From Candidatus Magasanikiibacteriota bacterium (GTDB lineage Bacteria > Patescibacteriota > Patescibacteriia > Magasanikbacterales > UBA922), in the NCBI GenBank assembly GCA_002716765.1, contig PBBY01000020.1, positions 1 to 34,910 on the forward strand: a stretch of 34,910 nucleotides of DNA, in the 5' to 3' direction. Below are positions 1 through 15,722 of this stretch, piece after piece. The notes beneath the pieces were generated by a model that worked only from the letters and a program-made list of their open reading frames with translations, did no database searches and was not told the DNA's origin. Both the position numbers and the translations under genes were made by a program. How positions within the stretch are numbered: the stretch's first letter is position 1; every line of letters starts with the position of its first letter.

Positions 1-65
1 GCCAAAACCTCCGGCTCCGCCAAAACCTCCGGCTCCGCCAAAACCTCCGGCTCCGCCAAAACCTG
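1..65 (+). repeat. 18-bp tandem repeat (GCCAAAACCTCCGGCTCC, three full copies plus a partial) encoding PKPPAP repeats
   Basis: Direct reading: gccaaaacctccggctcc occurs three times head-to-tail from base 1, then gccaaaacct; probably continues upstream of the window. Confidence 0.95.
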
Positions 66-1132
66 CTTCTAGTGACGTAACAATTGTTTCGCCACCACTT
101 AAGATATTGCAAAAAAAGGTAAAAGAAACTATTGAAAAAAAACCAAAAAAACCGGAACAGAGTTTGGTAAAAAAAGAAACTCAAACATTAAGTACCACCA
201 CACCGGTTACCGGTATTTTTGTAGATGAAGCAAGAGCAAAAGAGCATTGGGATGCAGAAGATCATAAATCATTATTAGATTTTGCAGAAGATGCGCCAAA
301 AATTCATGATCCAATTACCGATTTTACGAATGCAAAAGTAGATGCGGTATTTCGTAATATAGATTTACCTATTTCAGATGAGCTTCGACCAAGAATCCGC
401 TCACTTATTTTGTCGCGTCTAAAAGGTATTCGATCAAATGATCAGGTAGAAGAAAAACTTGCCGCATCAAAAGAAATAGGAGGTTTTGCTTTTACAGAAA
501 CAGAAATTTCGCAAGTTATGCGTGCGATTGCTCTTGGATTAAATCACAAAAAGTCCCAGATAAAAGAGGTAAAAAACATCCCTAAAATACAAAAAAAAGA
601 TACGAGCCCATCTATTCCATTACCCCCAGAAGAAATAATAGCTAATACAAAAAAACAGCCGGTGCTGGAACCTATGACAAATAATGTGTTATCGCGACAA
701 TCCACCGGAAATAAACCAATATTACACGATGTATTACCGGCACAAAATCACACACCAATACCAGAAAAGCCCAGTGAATTACAAAAAGCAAAAGCATCAA
801 TACAAATAAATAGACAAAGCATGGGGCCTGTACAAGAATTAGAAAACATGTCTATTGTTGCATTTCGTCGGTTGTCTCCTGACCCGAAAAATGCTATAGT
901 GCAAGTAGAAAACATGATTAATACAATAAAAAATGAATCATTTTTATTCTATATAGAGGCAAAAAAAGCATGGTATTCTAGCCCATTATTTTTGCAATAT
1001 CACGGGCTTATTACAGAAGCAATCAACAGTAAAAGAACACTACAAGAACAATTAGCCTTTCAAAATGTGCCAAATCCATTAACTATGGCAGATTTAGAAG
1101 TCCTTATTACTTTTAATCATTCTTTGATATAG
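2..1132 (+). CDS. 5'-truncated protein with Pro/Lys-rich repeats and a conserved-looking C-terminal region; hypothetical
   Basis: Frame 2 is open from base 2 (PKPPAPPKPPAPPKPPAPPKPASSDVTIVSPPLKILQKKVKE...); the track start at 107 is an internal TTG. Stop TAG 3 nt before the PrgI ATG. Confidence 0.8.
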   Translation, partial: PKPPAPPKPPAPPKPPAPPKPASSDVTIVSPPLKILQKKVKETIEKKPKKPEQSLVKKETQTLSTTTPVTGIFVDEARAKEHWDAEDHKSLLDFAEDAPKIHDPITDFTNAKVDAVFRNIDLPISDELRPRIRSLILSRLKGIRSNDQVEEKLAASKEIGGFAFTETEISQVMRAIALGLNHKKSQIKEVKNIPKIQKKDTSPSIPLPPEEIIANTKKQPVLEPMTNNVLSRQSTGNKPILHDVLPAQNHTPIPEKPSELQKAKASIQINRQSMGPVQELENMSIVAFRRLSPDPKNAIVQVENMINTIKNESFLFYIEAKKAWYSSPLFLQYHGLITEAINSKRTLQEQLAFQNVPNPLTMADLEVLITFNHSLI

Positions 1133-1135
1133 TGT

Positions 1136-1570
1136 ATGCAGCAATTTGTTGTACCACAATTTATAGAAGTAGAAGACAAAATTTTTGGCCCGGTTACGAC
1201 CAGGCAGTTTCTTATTTTACTTATAGCCGGTGGTGTTATTTTTCTTGCATATAGATTTGGCGATTTTGCACTTTTTATTATTACCCTTGCTATTTTGGGC
1301 GGCTTTGCACTTGTTTTGGCGTTTGTTAAAGTAAATGGGCAAAGTTTTCATTACTTTTTACTTAATATCGGAGAAAATCTCAGAAAACCAAGTTTACGTG
1401 TTTGGGAAAAGTCATATAGTAAGAAAGAGTTAGACTATTTACGTAATATTGTGGTAGAAAAAAAAGAAGTAGAGCAGGTTAAAAGAGACGTGCGAAAAAG
1501 TTATATACGAGATTTGTCGCTATTGGTAAATACGGGCGGATATTACAATCCAGAACAGCGAAAAAAATAG
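1136..1570 (+). CDS. PrgI family protein (T4SS-associated small membrane protein)
   Basis: N-terminal VPQFIEVEDKIFGPVTTRQFLILL followed by paired TM helices and ...NIGENLRKPSLRVWEK, typical of the PrgI family; directly upstream of VirB4-like genes. Confidence 0.8.
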   Translation: MQQFVVPQFIEVEDKIFGPVTTRQFLILLIAGGVIFLAYRFGDFALFIITLAILGGFALVLAFVKVNGQSFHYFLLNIGENLRKPSLRVWEKSYSKKELDYLRNIVVEKKEVEQVKRDVRKSYIRDLSLLVNTGGYYNPEQRKK

Positions 1571-1577
1571 GTAGGTC

Positions 1578-2270
1578 ATGCATATGAAAAGTAAAAAAGC
1601 AAAAAAGAAAAAAGCAAAAAAACCAGCAAGTCAGGCGTACTTACCAATAAACGAAATTAAGGAAGATGTGGTAATTATGAAAGACGGCACATTTCGATCG
1701 GTACTTATTACATCGAGTATTAATTTTGCGCTAAAATCAGAAGAAGAGCAAATGGCACTTATTTCTAATTATGTCGGATTTTTGAATTCCTTGGATTTTC
1801 CTATGCAAATTGTGGTCCAATCCAGAAGGCTTCGCATTCAGCCATATTTAGATAGTCTTGTTCAATTAGAAAATAAGCAAAAAAATGAATTACTAAAAGT
1901 GCAAATATCGGATTATAGATCATATATTAAAGAATTAGTAGAAATAGGAGAAATCATGACAAAAAAGTTTTATGTGGTGGTACCATTTGATCCAATGTCA
2001 AGCACAAAAAAAACTTTTTGGTCCAGGTTAAAAGAGGTGATTCATCCAATAATGACAGTCCGCGTAAAAGAAGAGCGATTCTTAAAAAGAAAAGAAGCGC
2101 TAATGATGCGTGTTCGCCAAGTAAAAACTGGTTTAGAAGGTATGGGTTTGGGTGTTACCCCACTTAATTCACAAGCATTAATAGAATTATATTATCAAAC
2201 ATATAATCCAGAGATTTCTTTTTCTGAACAATTACAAGACATAGGCGAAGTGCGGGTTGAAACTATATAG
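1578..2270 (+). CDS. VirB4/TraC-like N-terminal domain protein (separate ORF)
   Basis: 230 aa; ...IKEDVVIMKDGTFRSVLITSSINFALKSEEEQ... and VVQSRRLRIQPYL resemble the VirB4/TraC N-terminal region; tight spacing to both neighbours. Confidence 0.65.
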   Translation: MHMKSKKAKKKKAKKPASQAYLPINEIKEDVVIMKDGTFRSVLITSSINFALKSEEEQMALISNYVGFLNSLDFPMQIVVQSRRLRIQPYLDSLVQLENKQKNELLKVQISDYRSYIKELVEIGEIMTKKFYVVVPFDPMSSTKKTFWSRLKEVIHPIMTVRVKEERFLKRKEALMMRVRQVKTGLEGMGLGVTPLNSQALIELYYQTYNPEISFSEQLQDIGEVRVETI

Positions 2271-2276
2271 TATTTT

Positions 2277-4154
2277 ATGGCATTTAAACCATCCACAACT
2301 CAAATAAGTAAAAAACAAAAAAAGGGCAAAGATGATTTGCAAAAAACTGTGGCTTCGGAATTGGTAACACTAGAAGAAGAGCGCGCGTACAGGGCCGGAA
2401 CCGTTGCAGTTAGAGATTTAATTGCACCATCTGCTTTTAGGGTAGAAAGTAATTATGTACAACTTGGTGATGTATTTTTGCGCACTATTTTTGTTATTAC
2501 TTATCCACGATATATTTCTGTTGGTTGGAGTGCGCCAATTTTAAATTTAAACATGACTATGGACGTTAGCATGTTTTTTTATCCTATCCAATCGCCAGTT
2601 ATTTTAAAACAACTAAAAAAGAAGGTGGGTGCCCTGGAAGCACAGATTAGTTCGGACGCAGAAAAAGGTGCTCCACGAGACCCAATCAGAGAAACCGCCC
2701 TTCGAGATATAGAACAATTACGAGATGACTTAACTCAAGGAGTAGAGCATTTTTTTCAATTTGCTTTTTATACTACCATTTACGCAAAAGACAAAGAAGA
2801 GTTAGATAAAGCAACCGAAGATATAGAAAATGTATTTGGAACAAAACTTATTTATAGCAAGCACGTATTATATCAGGCCGAACAAGGATTTAATTCTACT
2901 GTACCATTTGGGCTCGATGAATTAAATGTGGCATTTAATATGAATTCTTCGCCAATTGCATCGTCCTTTCCATTTATGTCTTCGGAGCTTACTAGCGATA
3001 ATGGTATTTTATACGGTATTAATCGACACAATAATAGTCTTATTTTATTCGATAGATTTTCTTTACTTAATGCTAATATGGTAGTATTTGCCGTTGCTGG
3101 AGCTGGAAAGTCGTATACGGTAAAATTAGAAGTATTACGCAGTATGATGATGGGAACTGATGTTATTATAATAGATCCAGAAATGGAATATTCGCATTTA
3201 TGCGAAGCGGTTGGTGGAACATATGTAAACATTTCTCTTGCATCCGAAAGTAAAGTTAATCCGTTCGATTTACCACGACCGGTTGGTGGTATGCAAATGT
3301 CTACCGAAGACATAATCAGAAGTGCTATTATTACATTAAAAGGGCTTATTCGTATTATGTTTGGTTCACTTACGGCACAAGAAGATTCCATTATGGACAG
3401 AGCGCTTTTAGAAACGTATGCCAAAAAAGATATAACTAGCAATTCAGATTTAACAACAATCGAGCCACCGATTATGCAAGATTTACTTGATGTATTGCAA
3501 GGAATGGATGGTGCGGACACGTTGGCAATTAAATTACGTAAATACACCGAAGGAACGTTTTCTGGATTATTTAATGCACCAACCAATGTAAATACCAATA
3601 ATCAATTAGTCGTGTTTAGTGTCCGTGATTTAGAAGACGAATTACGACCAATGGCTATTTATTCACTTATTAATTATATTTGGAATATTGTACGAAGTGA
3701 AAGAAAAAAGCGTATTCTTATTATAGACGAGGCGTGGTGGCTTATGATGCATGAAGACAGTGCCAAGTTTATTTATGCGCTGGTAAAGCGGTGTAGAAAA
3801 TATTATTTAGGTGTTACAACGATTACACAAGACGTAAATGATTTTCTTGCATCTCAATACGGAAAAGCAATTGTAACTAACTCAGCCTTACAATTGCTTA
3901 TGCGACAATCGCCGGCTGCAATTGATTTGGTGCAAAAAACCTTTATGCTTACAGAAGGGGAGCGCTATTTATTGCTCGAAAGTGCGGTTGGAGAAGGAAT
4001 ATTTTTTGCTGGTTTAAAACATGCGGCAATTCATGTGGTTGCGTCATATACCGAAGATCAACTTATAACATCGGACCCGCGCCAATTATTGGAAATTGAA
4101 AAAGCAAAAAAAGAATTTGCAGAAAAATTGCAAATGCAAAGGGGAGAGGTGTAA
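2277..4154 (+). CDS. virB4: VirB4-family type IV secretion/conjugation ATPase
   Basis: Walker A AGAGKSYT, Walker B RILIIDEAWWLM, C-terminal TTITQDVNDFLASQYGKAIVTNSALQLLMRQ. Confidence 0.9.
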   Translation: MAFKPSTTQISKKQKKGKDDLQKTVASELVTLEEERAYRAGTVAVRDLIAPSAFRVESNYVQLGDVFLRTIFVITYPRYISVGWSAPILNLNMTMDVSMFFYPIQSPVILKQLKKKVGALEAQISSDAEKGAPRDPIRETALRDIEQLRDDLTQGVEHFFQFAFYTTIYAKDKEELDKATEDIENVFGTKLIYSKHVLYQAEQGFNSTVPFGLDELNVAFNMNSSPIASSFPFMSSELTSDNGILYGINRHNNSLILFDRFSLLNANMVVFAVAGAGKSYTVKLEVLRSMMMGTDVIIIDPEMEYSHLCEAVGGTYVNISLASESKVNPFDLPRPVGGMQMSTEDIIRSAIITLKGLIRIMFGSLTAQEDSIMDRALLETYAKKDITSNSDLTTIEPPIMQDLLDVLQGMDGADTLAIKLRKYTEGTFSGLFNAPTNVNTNNQLVVFSVRDLEDELRPMAIYSLINYIWNIVRSERKKRILIIDEAWWLMMHEDSAKFIYALVKRCRKYYLGVTTITQDVNDFLASQYGKAIVTNSALQLLMRQSPAAIDLVQKTFMLTEGERYLLLESAVGEGIFFAGLKHAAIHVVASYTEDQLITSDPRQLLEIEKAKKEFAEKLQMQRGEV

Positions 4155-4190
4155 TATATATTTCATTATCTATCTATAATATTTATTTCT

Positions 4191-4781
4191 ATGATGACAT
4201 TACGACAACGATTAAGTTTAATAATAGGTGTTGTGATTATTGGTATTATTATATTACTCCTTTTGGTGTTTAGAGAAAAACCACAACCAGAACAGGTGAT
4301 AGAGCCAGATGTGGTAGAGGTAGAAGAAACCATACCAGTACCAGACTACCCATTGGAAGATTTTGAAGAAGAGTTGGGGATTCAGGCGGCACCGGTAAAA
4401 GAAGTGGTAAAAGAAGATCCGGGATCATTATATCTACGACAAATAGCACGAATATTTACCGAACGATTTGGTACATATTCTACCCATAACGAAACCAATA
4501 ATACTGATGATATATTTTCTATGGCAACTGACAGTATGGTTGCTTATATGAAAACACAAGAAGTAACACGAACAAAAACATATACCGGCGCAACACTTCG
4601 CGTAATAAGTAGTAGTGTATCATTGCTTTCAGAAGACGCGGCAGAGGTAGAGGTTGCAGCACAAGAAATTGTACGAAAAAATGGTACACAAAATACGCGA
4701 CAAAAAGAAGGGGTGGTAAAATTTGTAAAACAGAATGGTGATTGGAGAGTAAATGGATTGTATTGGAATACTATTGAGTAG
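4191..4781 (+). CDS. Membrane-anchored hypothetical protein (one N-terminal TM, soluble C-terminal domain)
   Basis: 196 aa; N-terminal LSLIIGVVIIGIIILLLLVF, acidic/proline linker, then a globular-looking domain ending VVKFVKQNGDWRVNGLYW. Confidence 0.65.
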   Translation: MMTLRQRLSLIIGVVIIGIIILLLLVFREKPQPEQVIEPDVVEVEETIPVPDYPLEDFEEELGIQAAPVKEVVKEDPGSLYLRQIARIFTERFGTYSTHNETNNTDDIFSMATDSMVAYMKTQEVTRTKTYTGATLRVISSSVSLLSEDAAEVEVAAQEIVRKNGTQNTRQKEGVVKFVKQNGDWRVNGLYWNTIE

Positions 4782-5546: not shown

Positions 5547-6845
5547 TTAGTTTATATAATCACAAGTCATGGTAGAGTCATTTGGTTGCCTGTTTTCAGA
5601 CCCTTCACAAGTGGTACGTGTCCAGCAAATACCATTTTCTGGTTTTTCGTATAATCCCGGAGGGCATACGCAAGCGGTGTGGTCTGCATTTGGTCTGGTT
5701 TCTCCTTGGCAGGTGTGACATTCTCGTGCATTTTCATCTAGAACAAGATCGTCTCCTCCAACACAACTTTCTCTACTCATACAGTGGTGATATTGAGTGC
5801 TATAATACAACCCTTCTGGACAGACACAGCTAGTTTGATCGCTGTTTGGGATAAGTCCATTTGAGCAGGGAATACAGGCAGTGTAGTTCTCATATTCTTC
5901 TATAACATCTTCACATACACAGCTAGTTTGGTTTGCGTTAGGGGTGAATCCTCCCGTACAGTACTCACAATTCATTTCGTTATTAATTATACTGTTATCT
6001 CCGCACTCAAAAGTACAGGTGTTATTGTTTGAACAGTTTGCGTCATATGTCCATTCATTATTGGAATTTTCATCAAGATCCCATGGATTGCTTAAATCTT
6101 CGCAACTACTCCAGATTCCATGGTGTGATTCCGGTTCATTGGTACAGGTAATTGCAAAAGGAAAGCTTTCGCACTGGTTTGTTGCAGGATTTACTCGTTC
6201 TCCAGTTCCACAACGATAGCTACAAGGTAGTCTATTTTCATATTCAGGGTTACAGAATTCGGTAGCTGCCTCAGGACCAGGTCCAGACCATGTATAATTT
6301 ACTTCTCCGCCATCATGACCTCTGCAAACTGAATTTGCTCCTTCTGGGGGTGGTGAGGGGTTTCCTTCTTCATCAACACATGAGCCACTATTGCTGGCTT
6401 GGTTAATAGTCTCAGGAGTAGGAGTGTCAATATTATCTATCGGGTCAGATTTTTCTTCGTAGCTTGATTCTGATTTTTTACACGATATGCCATCTTTTGA
6501 ATCTCTGTCTACGGTTGGTTCATATCCTTTTGGGCATTCTGCACAAGCCGAGAGACATATTTCTTCTAATCTTTGTCGCAACTCTTGGTTAGAAAGTCTT
6601 TGAGATGAGGCGGCAACCTTTTGTCCTGAGTAGCAAAAACCTCTGGCAGACCCAGCGCGTGTTATAGAAAAAGAATTCAAGCCACATTTTTTTATTTTTT
6701 TAGGCAATTTATTTTGACTAACCTGGTTTACTGGTAAAAATGCAAGAGCAATGCCTGCTGCGGCAAAAAGTGCTGCAGTTGCAAGCGCAAGCTTTGTGTT
6801 TGTTACACTCTGTGTGCGTGTTTCTGTTTTTTTTCTTTTAGCCAT
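5547..6845 (-). CDS. Cys-rich secreted/anchored protein 1 with EGF/GCC2_GCC3-like repeats
   Basis: Likely start MAKRKK at 6845 (track start 6893 adds 16 residues and overlaps the AAA gene). TQSVTNTKLALATAALFAAAGIALAF anchor; repeats CTGGFTPNANQTSCVC / CSNGLIPNSDQTSCVC / CQGETRPNADHTACVC. Confidence 0.8.
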   Translation of the reverse strand: MAKRKKTETRTQSVTNTKLALATAALFAAAGIALAFLPVNQVSQNKLPKKIKKCGLNSFSITRAGSARGFCYSGQKVAASSQRLSNQELRQRLEEICLSACAECPKGYEPTVDRDSKDGISCKKSESSYEEKSDPIDNIDTPTPETINQASNSGSCVDEEGNPSPPPEGANSVCRGHDGGEVNYTWSGPGPEAATEFCNPEYENRLPCSYRCGTGERVNPATNQCESFPFAITCTNEPESHHGIWSSCEDLSNPWDLDENSNNEWTYDANCSNNNTCTFECGDNSIINNEMNCEYCTGGFTPNANQTSCVCEDVIEEYENYTACIPCSNGLIPNSDQTSCVCPEGLYYSTQYHHCMSRESCVGGDDLVLDENARECHTCQGETRPNADHTACVCPPGLYEKPENGICWTRTTCEGSENRQPNDSTMTCDYIN

Positions 6846-6880
6846 AGGCAAAATATACAATAAGTAATATAAATAAAATA

Positions 6881-8023
6881 CTAAGTAAGCCACTCATCCA
6901 CTACTGTCTCAATGTCTGATGCGTCTACCGAGAGGAGCCCCTTTTTTGCTAAAACATCTTCTTCTTTCTCTCGTTTTTCTATCAGGATTTGTTTCTCTGA
7001 TGGATTGGTTGCTTGGGAAATTTTTTGATCAAGTGATTGAATACTTTCCCATATTTTTTGAATATCCGGATGTTTTTTTATGGTAGCATCACACAAAATA
7101 AGTTGTACCGCTTGATTTATATGAGAAACACGCACAAGAGAAGCAGCTTCGTCTATGGCATCAATAGCTTTGTCGGGAAGAGTTCGTTTTTTAATTTTTT
7201 GATGAGTTAGTGTTACGGCTTTTTTTAGTGCTTCATTTGTAAACTGTACCCTGTGGTGGCATTCGTATTTTTCTTTTATCCCTTTTAAAATATCAAAAGT
7301 TTCTTTTTGTGTTGGTGCTTTTATGTTTACGGGCTGGAATCGGCGCTCTAGTGCTGGGTCGGTGGTAACATAGTTTTCGTATTCGTCTGTGGTGGTTGCG
7401 CCAATAAGTTGCAATTCTCCTCGGGCAAGTGCTGGTTTTAGGATATCACCTAAATTGACCGACCCTTCTGTTCCTTGAGACTGAATAACAGAATGAAATT
7501 CATCGATAAATAAAATGATTGATCTGTTTGATCGCTTAATTTCTTCTACGAGTTTTTTTGCTCGTTCTTCAAACTCTCCTCGGTATTTTGTTCCAGAAAG
7601 AAGATTTGCTACATTTAGAGAAAGGACACGTTTTCCTTGAATTGTTTCAGGAACATCTCCTTTTGCGATTTGTACAGCTATACCTTCTGCAATAGCTGTT
7701 TTTCCTACACCAGGTGCTCCAACAAGAATGGCATTGTTTTTTCTTTTTCGAGATAGTATTTGTGCCAGTCGTACAATTTCTTTTTCACGACCAATAACTG
7801 GATCAATTTTCCCTAATCTTGCTAATTCAGTAAAGTTAACAGTAAAGGAGTTTAATATAGGGGTTCGCCCACTAGAACCAGTTGATTGCAGTCTGCTAAA
7901 AAGAGAAGACACAAGAAGCGATGGTTTTTTTACGGTAACAAATTGGTATAGCGCAAATAGTAGTAATGCACCAATAACATAGTAGATACTGGGCGGTTGA
8001 AGGAACGATTGGATGGAGTCCAT
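6881..8023 (-). CDS. Membrane-anchored single-AAA+ (ClpA/B/C D1-like) ATPase lacking D2
   Basis: GAPGVGKTA Walker A, ILFIDEFH Walker B, GATTTDEY, ALERRFQ; N-terminal TM IYYVIGALLLFALYQF; ends ...VDASDIETVVDEWLT where D2 would begin. Likely start MDSIQS at 8023. Confidence 0.85.
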   Translation of the reverse strand: MDSIQSFLQPPSIYYVIGALLLFALYQFVTVKKPSLLVSSLFSRLQSTGSSGRTPILNSFTVNFTELARLGKIDPVIGREKEIVRLAQILSRKRKNNAILVGAPGVGKTAIAEGIAVQIAKGDVPETIQGKRVLSLNVANLLSGTKYRGEFEERAKKLVEEIKRSNRSIILFIDEFHSVIQSQGTEGSVNLGDILKPALARGELQLIGATTTDEYENYVTTDPALERRFQPVNIKAPTQKETFDILKGIKEKYECHHRVQFTNEALKKAVTLTHQKIKKRTLPDKAIDAIDEAASLVRVSHINQAVQLILCDATIKKHPDIQKIWESIQSLDQKISQATNPSEKQILIEKREKEEDVLAKKGLLSVDASDIETVVDEWLT

Positions 8024-8109
8024 ATAATGGTTTTTATGAATAGATGTGTATAGTATATCACATTTTTTCTTCCATGAAAAAACCAAGAGTGATACATACT
8101 TTTGGTATA

Positions 8110-8140
8110 AAAAATCCCGTCACAATGTGTCGGGATTTTT
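8110..8140 (-). terminator. Intrinsic terminator downstream of Cys-rich gene 2
   Basis: AAAAATCCCG...CGGGATTTTT, 10-bp stem with further inner CACA/TGTG complementarity. Confidence 0.75.
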
Positions 8141-8145
8141 GAGGA

Positions 8146-8853
8146 TTATATTCGGATACACTCTTCTTGATTGCCACTTAGTATTTCACCTGGATCGCAG
8201 CAACTAGTTCTGTTTTGGTTGTCGAGATACGAATCTGATCCAAGGGGGCAGGTACAAGAAAGCTCTTCATTTGTCTCTGTAAGAAGCGCATTTTCACCAC
8301 ACATGTAAATGCAGCTATTTTCTTCTGGACCGGGTATGTATCCAGGGTTACACGGGCAAAGTCTTTTCCAGTTCCATAGTGTTGCGGGCATTGAATCGTT
8401 TGGGATTCTGGTGAGCTGTTCCGTTGTGTTTGGGCCGCACGCAGGATCATTTATTGCTTGTGATGAGAGTAGTATACTACCACCACTTCCTGGGATTACT
8501 TCTCTTCCAAGACACTCTTCTTTATTTTCAGAAAGTTCATAGTTTGGTGGACAAAGTGAGGTGCACCCTCCGTGTTTGTTGGGTATTTGTCTTTTGGGGT
8601 CACAGTTTTGTGTATTGTCTTCCTGGGTAGGTGAAATAGTGGTTTCGAATTTTCTTTGTGCGATTGTTTTTGAGGTTTCTATTTGCATTTTTTGCGTACC
8701 AAGTTGTTGTGTTCGTTTTGCTGATCTACTTGGTTGTGTGTTTTTCTTTTCTTGTTGTGGTACGACAATAAACGCAAGGCCACTTGCTATAAGTAGAGAG
8801 GCTGTTGCAAGTGCTAATTTAGTGCTAGTAACACTATGAGTTTTTGTTGGCAT
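8146..8853 (-). CDS. Cys-rich secreted/anchored protein 2
   Basis: MPTKTHSVTSTKLALATASLLIASGLAF anchor shared with neighbours; Cys-rich C-terminal half (CGENALLTETNEELSCTCPLGSD, CCDPGEILSGNQEEC). Confidence 0.75.
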   Translation of the reverse strand: MPTKTHSVTSTKLALATASLLIASGLAFIVVPQQEKKNTQPSRSAKRTQQLGTQKMQIETSKTIAQRKFETTISPTQEDNTQNCDPKRQIPNKHGGCTSLCPPNYELSENKEECLGREVIPGSGGSILLSSQAINDPACGPNTTEQLTRIPNDSMPATLWNWKRLCPCNPGYIPGPEENSCIYMCGENALLTETNEELSCTCPLGSDSYLDNQNRTSCCDPGEILSGNQEECIRI

Positions 8854-8889
8854 AGTTTTGGTTAGTAAATAGTATTGATACGTAATAAC

Positions 8890-9891
8890 TTAACCACTAA
8901 TTTGAAACCCTCTGTTGTTGTGGGGTACTAAACCTCTTCTTGCTATATATTCCTCTGAGAGTGCTGTGTTCCAGTCTGTGTAGTGTGCACGACCTTGGAC
9001 CCATTCTCCATCCTGGTCTTCTTCTTCGAAATATGGAGTATCGACTACTGGGAGGTAGTAGGTTGAACCAAACTCATCTACAAGTAAGATTACTAATGAT
9101 TCTTGATTACGGAAGGTGAACGGACTACAGTGATCTGCATTACAAGGAACATTTGAGTTTTCTGTGTCTATTTCAGGGAGATATATATTTATTTGTTTAT
9201 TTTCTTGTACATTTCCATACCTGTCTTCAATATCTGCAAGGAAACTTAGTGTTTGTTCCTCGATATCTCCAGTAATCGTTACTATAACAAAATTTCTATC
9301 GTTGTAAGGTGTCCAGTTTGACCCATAAAAGCGCTCTGAAGTATTTTTTGATTCACTAAACCATCGCCAAGTTCCTCCTGTAGGTCCAATTACTGGTCTT
9401 GTGTTGGATGAGTTGTTTGCCTGACCAATTGAGACATTGTTGTTTGATCTATAATTTGTTTCGTCTGATTCTCTAATTGTGACGATTTTCATTCTTTCTA
9501 TAGCTCTACACCTACTATTTTCACAAATTTTTCCTTCCCCACACTGTTGGCTTTGTGAGCAGTATTTTTGTTCTATCTCCTTACATTGTCTATTTTCACA
9601 AATCTGATTAACTTCACAATCATAGTCATTTGCACAGAATTTTTGTAACTTAGATGGTGTGGTTTGGGTGACTTTTTTTATAGGTTGTTTTTTTGTGTTC
9701 ATTACTTTTTTACCTTTTTGTTTTTTTGGGTATATTTTTTTTGTTTCTACCGTCTCTTTGTTGGTGTAGTCCTTATCTTTTTCTGAAAGTGGAATTGAAG
9801 CAAATGCAAGACTGCTAGCGGCAAGAAGAGCTGCAGTTGCCAAAGCCAGTTTGGTGCTGGTTACACTTTTTGTTTTTGTTTTTGGAGGCAT
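8890..9891 (-). CDS. Cys-rich secreted/anchored protein 3 with two C-x-ICEN-x-C repeats
   Basis: MPPKTKTKSVTSTKLALATAALLAASSLAF; repeats FCANDYDCEVNQICENRQCKEIE and YCSQSQQCGEGKICENSRCRAIE; distinct C-terminal domain. Confidence 0.75.
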   Translation of the reverse strand: MPPKTKTKSVTSTKLALATAALLAASSLAFASIPLSEKDKDYTNKETVETKKIYPKKQKGKKVMNTKKQPIKKVTQTTPSKLQKFCANDYDCEVNQICENRQCKEIEQKYCSQSQQCGEGKICENSRCRAIERMKIVTIRESDETNYRSNNNVSIGQANNSSNTRPVIGPTGGTWRWFSESKNTSERFYGSNWTPYNDRNFVIVTITGDIEEQTLSFLADIEDRYGNVQENKQINIYLPEIDTENSNVPCNADHCSPFTFRNQESLVILLVDEFGSTYYLPVVDTPYFEEEDQDGEWVQGRAHYTDWNTALSEEYIARRGLVPHNNRGFQISG

Positions 9892-9977
9892 AGAATTATA
9901 TTAATAATATAAAAGAAGTTAATTACCGTTATAGTATACCATATTTTTAAATGTGATGGAAAAAGAGGTTGTTATTC

Positions 9978-11138
9978 TTATTTTACACATTCCCATGCTT
10001 TTGTTTTTTTATTTAATTGCGGTACTTTATCGCCGCCACAAAAAAATTCACATGGTGCGCCCGTGCAAGTGCGAATTAAGTGCCATTCTTCTTCTGCCCA
10101 ACCGCTGGCTGGTGCTTTTTCTGATCCAGGACATTTAATACCATTGTTATCGCGAAGCGCGGTACCAAGACACATAATTTGTTTGCAATAAAAGGTACCG
10201 TCGTTGTGTTCTTTTATTCGGTATCCTGGGTCCGTGCAGGTACATGCTGTACCACGCGTATTTGGGCTCGCGCCCTCTGGACAAGAAATAGCACAAGCGG
10301 TATTGTCTTCGTTTGGTGTGTAATTTGTTGGACAGGAAATAATGCAGCTATTGCCAGAACTGTCGGCTTCTTCTCCTTTTTTGCACTGTACTACACATTG
10401 ATTCCTTTTTTCATTAAATACATATCCAGAAATACAGTCACATCTATTTTTGTCTTCATTTGCTATTTCGTTTTCTTTGCAAACAATTTCGCAAGCATTA
10501 TGATTTTGCGAAAATATAAAGTTTGGCGCACATTGGCAGGCTATTTCTGATGGAGTAGGTGTTTGTCCAGTGGGGCAAGTTTCGACACATGTGGTTTTTT
10601 CTGCATTTGGTACTGTATTCCCTAAGCATGGTTCGCAATATGTTTCTGTGTGTAATCCACCAGAGATGGTGCTAAATGTACTACTTTTTACCACTGACCC
10701 TTCTGGACACGTAAGTGCGCAGAGGAGGTCGGAAGAAGGTTCTGGGCATTGTGCATAATAAAGAAACGGTGCATCTTGTGTTTGTACCGCACCAGCCAGT
10801 GCTAGATTTTCTGTTGAGCATCGTACAAATCCTTCTGTTTCGTCCGGGGTTTGTAAGGTGTTGCATTGTTTTGCAACGGTGCAGTGTTCTGCTTTTTTCG
10901 TTTGTGAGCAGGCGGTAGAGTGCTGGATACGTGTGTTTCCTGATATATTTTCGCCAAATCCAGGGCAACGTGAATAACCTGGCGAAATAATTCCAGTACA
11001 GGTAAAAGCTGTCTGCTTTGGTATTGCCACAAACGCAAGGCCACCAGCAATAAGTAGGGCGGTAATTCCAAGGGCGATTTTTGTATTTGTTTTAGACGTG
11101 CTTACCGAGCGTGTTGCAGTATATTTACGATCTGTCAT
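9978..11138 (-). CDS. Cys-rich secreted/anchored protein 4 with EGF/GCC2_GCC3-like repeats
   Basis: Likely start MTDRKY at 11138; SKTNTKIALGITALLIAGGLAF anchor; many C..G..PN....T.C.C repeats (CLGNTVPNAEKTTC, CPTNYTPNEDNTAC, CPEGASPNTRGTACTC). Confidence 0.78.
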   Translation of the reverse strand: MTDRKYTATRSVSTSKTNTKIALGITALLIAGGLAFVAIPKQTAFTCTGIISPGYSRCPGFGENISGNTRIQHSTACSQTKKAEHCTVAKQCNTLQTPDETEGFVRCSTENLALAGAVQTQDAPFLYYAQCPEPSSDLLCALTCPEGSVVKSSTFSTISGGLHTETYCEPCLGNTVPNAEKTTCVETCPTGQTPTPSEIACQCAPNFIFSQNHNACEIVCKENEIANEDKNRCDCISGYVFNEKRNQCVVQCKKGEEADSSGNSCIISCPTNYTPNEDNTACAISCPEGASPNTRGTACTCTDPGYRIKEHNDGTFYCKQIMCLGTALRDNNGIKCPGSEKAPASGWAEEEWHLIRTCTGAPCEFFCGGDKVPQLNKKTKAWECVK

Positions 11139-11193
11139 ATATACCAGTGTTATTGGTATAGTATACACTATTTTTTACTTTTATGGTAGCAGT

Positions 11194-15308: not shown

Positions 15309-15722
15309 TTAGAGAAGTAAAAATACCGCAATGCATAATGCTATATTAAGGATACTGCTAATAATACACCACGTACACACTTTCTTTAATATACCAAACT
15401 GCACATACAAAAGATATATACTAAACAGTGTTGCGACAGCTACTGTAATACGTAGGAATAAAAGAATGGATTCGGAAAGGTGTATGTATGTTGGATTACC
15501 CAGTAAATATGTGCAAAAAAATACAGTTATATAAAAGAGCGTGCCAAGATATTCATTTTGTATACCAAAGATTGTGTTATATTTTGATGCAGTTACAGCA
15601 TCACATGAGCCACGAAGCGGGCAGGTCATTGGTTTGTTGTGTGTGTTAAGTTGATAGTGTTGCCAAATAAGGTATAACACGTTACACATTCCTAATATGT
15701 CCAAAATATAGATAGTAGTCAT
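15309..15722 (-). CDS. Vitamin K epoxide reductase (VKOR) family protein, stand-alone
   Basis: CPLRGSCDAVTASKYNTIFGIQNEYLG loop cysteines, CTWC redox motif, multiple TM helices. Confidence 0.88.
   Translation of the reverse strand: MTTIYILDILGMCNVLYLIWQHYQLNTHNKPMTCPLRGSCDAVTASKYNTIFGIQNEYLGTLFYITVFFCTYLLGNPTYIHLSESILLFLRITVAVATLFSIYLLYVQFGILKKVCTWCIISSILNIALCIAVFLLL

Follow-up and report, generated by a model that had tools for sequence, protein, structure and literature searches.

The stretch analysed here, referred to as the window, is a 34,910-nucleotide contig (G000:C20; PBBY01000020.1 of assembly GCA_002716765.1) of a Candidatus Magasanikiibacteriota bacterium, whose genome of 886 kb comprises 22 contigs and is about 90% complete. 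Its size and gene content, with VirB4/PrgI genes, ComF and a few small operons, point to a member of the Patescibacteria/CPR. On its minus strand, four genes encode proteins that begin with a common N-terminal segment, hereafter the tag, which consists of a short tail followed by one Ala-rich transmembrane (TM) helix. An earlier note on this DNA had described these four genes and their shared N-terminus, and all four open reading frames (ORFs) were confirmed, with 14 invariant alignment columns over the roughly 35 residues they have in common. The note overlooked a gene for a membrane-anchored AAA+ ATPase, which separates tagged genes 1 and 2 and is the most informative part of the locus. The cluster is composed as follows:

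5547..6845, minus strand: tagged protein 1, 432 aa from the likely start ATG 6845 (open frame 5547-6893, reaching GTG 6893); tail MAKRKKTETRTQSVTNTK, one TM helix, 34 Cys in the mature part
6723..6845, minus strand: N-terminal tag of protein 1 (profile match, E 4e-18)
6881..8086, minus strand: membrane-anchored single-ring AAA+ ATPase, 401 aa, TTG start
8146..8853, minus strand: tagged protein 2, 235 aa; tail MPTKTHSVTSTK, 14 Cys
8746..8853, minus strand: N-terminal tag of protein 2 (profile match, E 4e-18)
8890..9891, minus strand: tagged protein 3, 333 aa; tail MPPKTKTKSVTSTK, 10 Cys in the mature part, weak DUF7107 repeat
9781..9891, minus strand: N-terminal tag of protein 3 (profile match, E 4e-18)
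9978..11138, minus strand: tagged protein 4, 386 aa from the likely start ATG 11138 (open frame 9978-11168); tail MTDRKYTATRSVSTSKTNTK, 34 Cys, mature part related to protein 1
11010..11138, minus strand: N-terminal tag of protein 4 (profile match, E 2e-16)

The 22-residue core of the tag is under purifying selection in the window: the proportion of synonymous differences among the four genes (pS) is 0.49-0.83, compared to 0.10-0.30 for non-synonymous differences (pN). This bears out the earlier statement that the protein was kept while its DNA diverged, and on the same values the four genes are not simple recent duplicates, a point which that note had raised. Its statement that the mature parts differ holds for most pairs but not for proteins 1 and 4, the only two with homologous mature parts (26% identity, E 2e-6). 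The EGF/GCC2_GCC3-like repeats it assigned to these two proteins could not be upheld, as neither domain was ever significant in a Pfam scan of the window (best hit EGF_3, E 0.32). The best Pfam domain in the mature parts was DUF7107 in protein 3 (E 1.6e-4, under its curated cut-off), beyond which Pfam, NCBIfam and motif scans of these parts returned no domain; a single-sequence predicted fold of protein 3 had a mean pLDDT (predicted local distance difference test score) of 35. Protein 1 has an ortholog in the related genome G001 (L100), with 60% identity across 109 aa of the mature part. Searching the window's own genome with the tag recovered the same four genes (E 2e-10 to 2e-3), and a profile search added a fifth copy on another contig (G000:C22:3771-5726; 651 aa, 28 Cys, E 1e-9). 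The fifth gene is adjoined by a gene for an exported-looking Cys-rich protein without the tag (L146:5772-6797, plus strand, 25 Cys).

The tag recurs well beyond this genome. A search of 59 relatives with a single tag sequence found it in G001 (five copies), G014, G026, G045, G050, G009 and others, and a hidden Markov model (HMM) of the tag, iterated once, matched 54 ORFs in the stretches examined from related genomes. Since the same HMM matched none of 6,794 control ORFs of other phyla, the motif lies far above chance, and a chance similarity between signal peptides was rejected. The 53 tagged proteins examined, up to 2428 aa long, all look exported, and 52 have no TM helix besides the N-terminal one, the sole exception being an artefact of an over-long start. 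Their outer domains include CARDB in ten carriers and FG-GAP, right-handed beta-helix/NosD, papain protease, plastocyanin, TSP_3, CBM_4_9, DUF285 and Glug in one or two carriers each. These results support the proposal of a dedicated N-terminal module for anchoring or export, conserved in its own right and fused to unrelated extracytoplasmic domains.

The same survey bears on the possibility that the tagged proteins are adhesins rich in Cys, equipped with an export signal of their own and serving host attachment. The window's own members are Cys-rich, and a VKOR/DsbB-like protein that could make their disulfides is encoded 4 kb from the cluster (15309-15722, minus strand, Pfam E 1e-22). However, Cys counts across the family range from 0 to 111, and many carriers elsewhere have few Cys or, like L126, L137, L122 and L109:6530, none, and their domains include papain, plastocyanin and beta-helix. 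The motif does recur on unrelated proteins, but a tie to disulfide-rich ectodomains is not supported. As a general role of the tag, adhesion is refuted, and we regard this explanation as very doubtful, although attachment by the four window proteins is possible.

Several individual carriers and their neighbours were recorded in the course of the survey. The same genus as the window encodes a tagged protein of 2428 aa with 111 Cys (L099:1151-8437, minus strand), and another carrier of 1360 aa has a papain-family protease domain (L147:2809-6891, minus strand; E 2e-39). A small tagged protein of about 115-170 aa, with a common ...CHD[GR].. core past the anchor, was met at L116:1536-2024, L167:4793-5308, L170:1887-2288 and L117:9219-9569. 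Wzy_C proteins (O-antigen ligase/O-oligosaccharyltransferase-type) are encoded beside or near tagged genes or the ATPase in five genomes (L117, L138, L128, L164, L151), which suggests glycosylation of the tagged proteins there, though not in general. A multi-span protein with the motif [FY]GYD[TVA]GIYR[RH] adjoins tagged genes at L155, L156, L127, L116, L170 and L167; the three copies tested had no Pfam match, and none was found in the window's own genome.

An alignment of 51 tags shows how the segment is built. Alternate columns of the tail hold T, T/V, T, S/T, T/S and T at 2.8-3.6 bits, and those in between (K, Q, N, V) carry 1.0-2.2 bits, such that the information ranges of the six conserved and the six variable columns do not overlap. 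Past the tail come a K at the membrane and [LM]-A-[VIL]-A(0.94)-[TV], giving the consensus TxTxTxSxTxTK[LM]A[VIL]A[TV], and then an Ala/Gly-rich helix in which L and A are conserved, often with Pro or Gly after it. In 12 tails from outside the profile, chosen mostly for an adjoining ATPase in other families, the alternation score was 0.57 compared to 0.34 in other N-anchored ORFs of the same stretches (p=0.001, a guide only, because some of these control ORFs are not genes). Positive residues are more numerous before the TM helix than after it in 34 of the 53 tagged proteins and equal in ten; judged from charge, and from the composition of the tail, this modestly suggests a cytosolic tail and an outer domain outside. 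Known sorting signals did not fit. The aligned tags lack the G|F(T)xxE cleavage motif of type IV prepilins, Cys is not among the common residues of their columns, as the lipobox of a bacterial lipoprotein would demand, and the consensus does not match the YSIRK-GxxS motif of YSIRK/GXXS signal peptides. C-terminal sorting signals of the LPXTG, PEP-CTERM or GlyGly-CTERM type, including sortase-type ones, were rejected as the carriers lack a C-terminal TM helix.

The ATPase begins with a TM helix, followed by the first AAA+ ring domain (D1) and lid of ClpB/ClpC, from whose D1 half it derives. By Pfam and NCBIfam it falls within the D1 region of ClpB, ClpA and ClpV; its AAA+ core is about 55% identical to ClpB/ClpC D1, the closest structures are ClpC 6em8 and ClpB 1qvr and 4hse, and the best solved relative is ClpC, matched over residues 153-483, up to the end of D1. 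A predicted model, with core pLDDT above 90, matches ClpC and the first nucleotide-binding domain of ClpB. The start it shares with its counterpart in G001 is MDSIQSF, at residue 23. No Clp_N match was obtained, the TM helix standing in its place, and the second ring (D2) is absent from the window ATPase and from 36 short relatives, the alignment ending at the D1 boundary (ClpC 483); the protein therefore lacks the ClpP-docking part of ClpC. It possesses the ClpB/ClpC D1 core with Walker motifs, Arg finger and Tyr pore loop, while its identity as a full Hsp100 chaperone was rejected for want of both D2 and the Clp N-terminal domain. All 36 short relatives have the hydrophobic N-terminal helix and retain the Walker A K/T, Walker B D/E, sensor, two Arg and the pore loop GTK[YF]RGE. 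Because positive charges follow the TM helix in 35 of the 36, the ring is predicted to lie on the cytosolic side. Ordinary full-length Clp ATPases are present in the same genomes (887 aa at G000:C10), so the short ATPase is an extra protein. A scan of genome contigs with the ATPase yielded only ordinary ClpB/ClpC-like proteins of other phyla, which were used as a negative control and for alignment depth. A second group of short membrane AAA+ proteins, several with AEAGEA[ST]GAI, was seen at L136, L139, L140, L141, L142, L145 and L166, mostly adjoining cysS/dus-type genes and without a tagged neighbour.

Tag and ATPase occur together. Among 86 draft genomes of the order, scored with tag profile A4 (E<=1e-3) and the short-ATPase profile A3 (E<=1e-131), both were found in 26, neither in 56 and only one in four (Fisher p=2e-17). 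Profile A4 is not fully independent of the ATPase, some of its rows having been found beside it; profile A2, built from tag matches alone, gave both in 23 of 144 relatives, ATPase only in seven, tag only in two and neither in 112 (p=2e-18). The four discordant genomes are explained or partly explained: in the tag-only genome G010 the start of an ATPase is cut by the contig end right past the tagged gene (L155:8528-9204), in the tag-only genome G065 the tagged cluster sits at a contig end, and the ATPase-only genomes G038 and G042 hold a divergent tag-like protein beside or near the ATPase. In five genera (g10, g15, g23, g24, g51) one species lacks both genes and a sister has both; with the contig-end cases G010 and G065 as exceptions, the two vary together inside genera, and relatedness alone does not explain the pairing. 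Across 380 genomes of the phylum, tags at E<1e-10 were found only in G000, G014 and G022, the same three that have an ATPase above 500 bits.

The two genes also tend to be neighbours. A tagged gene lies within 200 bp of the ATPase gene at 20 of 31 loci, on the same strand in all 20, and adding G001, where the pair is cut at a contig end, and G067 (203 bp) gives 22 of 31 with immediate neighbours. At every locus that holds an HMM-tagged gene, the nearest one is on the ATPase's strand. Genomes G225, G253 and G176 belong to other families of the phylum, and there too the distant ATPase relatives adjoin tag-like proteins, recognised by position. The surroundings of the pair vary: type IV secretion system (T4SS)-like genes and ComF in G000, G001 and G014, and a methyltransferase, YraN and NusA in other genomes. 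In the window, the T4SS-like genes adjoin the cluster on the plus strand (1-4781) and encode PrgI, a two-part VirB4/TraC-TraG ATPase and a 196-aa TM protein; as partners of the tag they were rejected, since they lie beside the cluster only in G001 (L100) and G014 (L102). Gene order could by itself have kept an ordinary lineage-specific signal anchor, spread by domain fusion, near an ATPase with which it has no functional link, and one family does conserve the order 81-aa TM protein, methyltransferase, YraN, ATPase, tagged gene, NusA. Between families, however, the neighbours are wholly different and the pair persists, and tagged genes that are unlinked in some genomes never occur without the ATPase. 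This explanation is already disfavoured and appears extremely improbable to us. Joint presence and absence together with neighbouring genes, as expected of a many-to-one tag and partner, were both found, and the partnership is well supported.

Less certain is what the ATPase does. Membrane-anchored AAA+ machines such as FtsH and Msp1 extract membrane proteins by a cytosolic tail, and the ATPase might likewise be a general dislocase of failed membrane proteins that merely lies beside its commonest clients, the tag marking abundant anchored proteins. The presence of an additional full-length Clp ATPase in these genomes is in keeping with this reading. A general service is nevertheless quite unlikely, because the ATPase is missing whenever the tag is missing, even inside a genus.

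We favour, at slightly better than even, a many-to-one system, with the ATPase acting on many different surface proteins by engaging the cytosolic tail of their tags. Each tag would pair this short tail, of the form T-x-T-x-[TV]-x-[ST]-x-T-K, with one Ala-rich membrane helix, by which unrelated domains are tethered outside the cell. One ATPase would serve all tagged proteins of a cell as their dedicated partner, its ring held by its own N-terminal helix on the cytosolic face and thus on the tail's side of the membrane. D1 pore loops of ClpB bind extended substrate at dipeptide spacing through a conserved Tyr (PMC6546751), and AAA+ motors hold extended substrate as two-residue segments (PMC7112951). 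An alternating tail could be gripped by such a pore, and in the simplest model the ring engages the tail and pulls, most likely holding it in an extended, beta-strand-like form with one pore loop per second residue. The ATPase, a putative protein-threading enzyme, probably acts on the tag. As to the direction and outcome of its work, we infer that ATP is most likely spent on the tagged proteins, for example to extract, release, exchange or re-sort them, to clear stuck precursors or to set their number at the surface.

Two other accounts draw on the same features. The ATPase might be an export helper, holding tagged precursors in an unfolded state or passing them on to the Sec channel, the tag being a specialised export signal in the manner of the YSIRK or KxYKxGKxW signals of Gram-positive bacteria. 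Secretion can be steered by an additional motif in a signal peptide, as with YSIRK/GXXS (PMC5962339), and the tag is N-terminal, ahead of the sole hydrophobic stretch of carriers that all look exported. A ClpB-type ring, however, pulls towards the cytosol, where it lies itself, the adjacent genes inspected include no further SecA or SecY, and no constant cleavage site follows the helix in the aligned tags, which makes this account unlikely. Alternatively, tail and helix might bind the ATPase by strand addition or helix packing, with the ring clustering tagged proteins into a surface complex as a scaffold rather than threading them. Alternation of T/S/V is a pattern of edge strands, and small residues recur at set positions of the helix, yet the pore loop GTK[YF]RGE, which a scaffold would not need, is present in every member, and we consider such a role rather improbable.

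Several observations weigh against engagement and pulling of the tail. The charge rule is weak for the tagged proteins, 34 of the 53 being clearly N-in; with 12-20 residues, the tail is short for threading; and the Ala-rich helix is conserved as much as the tail, such that the helix may be the recognised element. Pulling an outer domain through the membrane would be impossible once it is folded and disulfide-bonded. Distant ATPases in G109, G139, G112, G127, G097, G121, G129, G239 and G199 have no recognisable adjoining tag, so that either the pairing is younger than the ATPase family or their tags are too divergent, and G009 holds both genes far apart.

Bacteria of this kind, with genomes of about 1 Mb, are believed to depend on contact with other cells for their living, and to our knowledge few of their surface proteins are recognisable by sequence. 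With the tag, the tagged surface proteins of a genome can be listed, and their management becomes open to testing through one protein, the paired ATPase. A description of the pairing was not found in the family libraries or open papers searched. If the favoured mechanism is true, the Clp AAA+ fold would have a new job, the handling of exported proteins through an N-terminal tag and without a protease. A bolder proposal, to which we give somewhat less than even chances, is that the tag is an N-terminal handle whose two-residue T/S/V rhythm is built for gripping by the pore of a dedicated AAA+ ring that is tethered to the membrane and has no protease, and that the system represents an undescribed class of surface-protein systems; with ATP, the cell could then pull on whichever surface proteins carry the handle, release them or exchange them.

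FtsH, Msp1 and Bcs1 are membrane-anchored AAA+ rings that act on membrane proteins, as proposed here for the window ATPase, which differs from them in belonging to another AAA clade and, compared to FtsH, in having no protease. With the D1 ring of ClpB/ClpC (Hsp100) it shares the lid and the pore loop; unlike them, it has a membrane helix at its N-terminus and neither Clp N-domain, D2 nor ClpP-docking part. The GlyGly-CTERM/rhombosortase and PEP-CTERM/exosortase systems resemble the present one in joint presence and absence and in a partner that tends to adjoin its target (PMC3237569, PMC1569441); for GlyGly-CTERM/rhombosortase, one partner serves many targets and adjoins the target when there is only one (PMC3237569). 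Their tag is C-terminal and their partner an intramembrane protease or transpeptidase, whereas the tag described here is N-terminal, its partner is an AAA+ ATPase and its carriers have no second TM helix. The YSIRK/GXXS and KxYKxGKxW signals likewise place extra conserved residues around a signal-like hydrophobic stretch on unrelated surface proteins, but the tag has a different motif, comes without a C-terminal cell-wall anchor and is paired with an ATPase.

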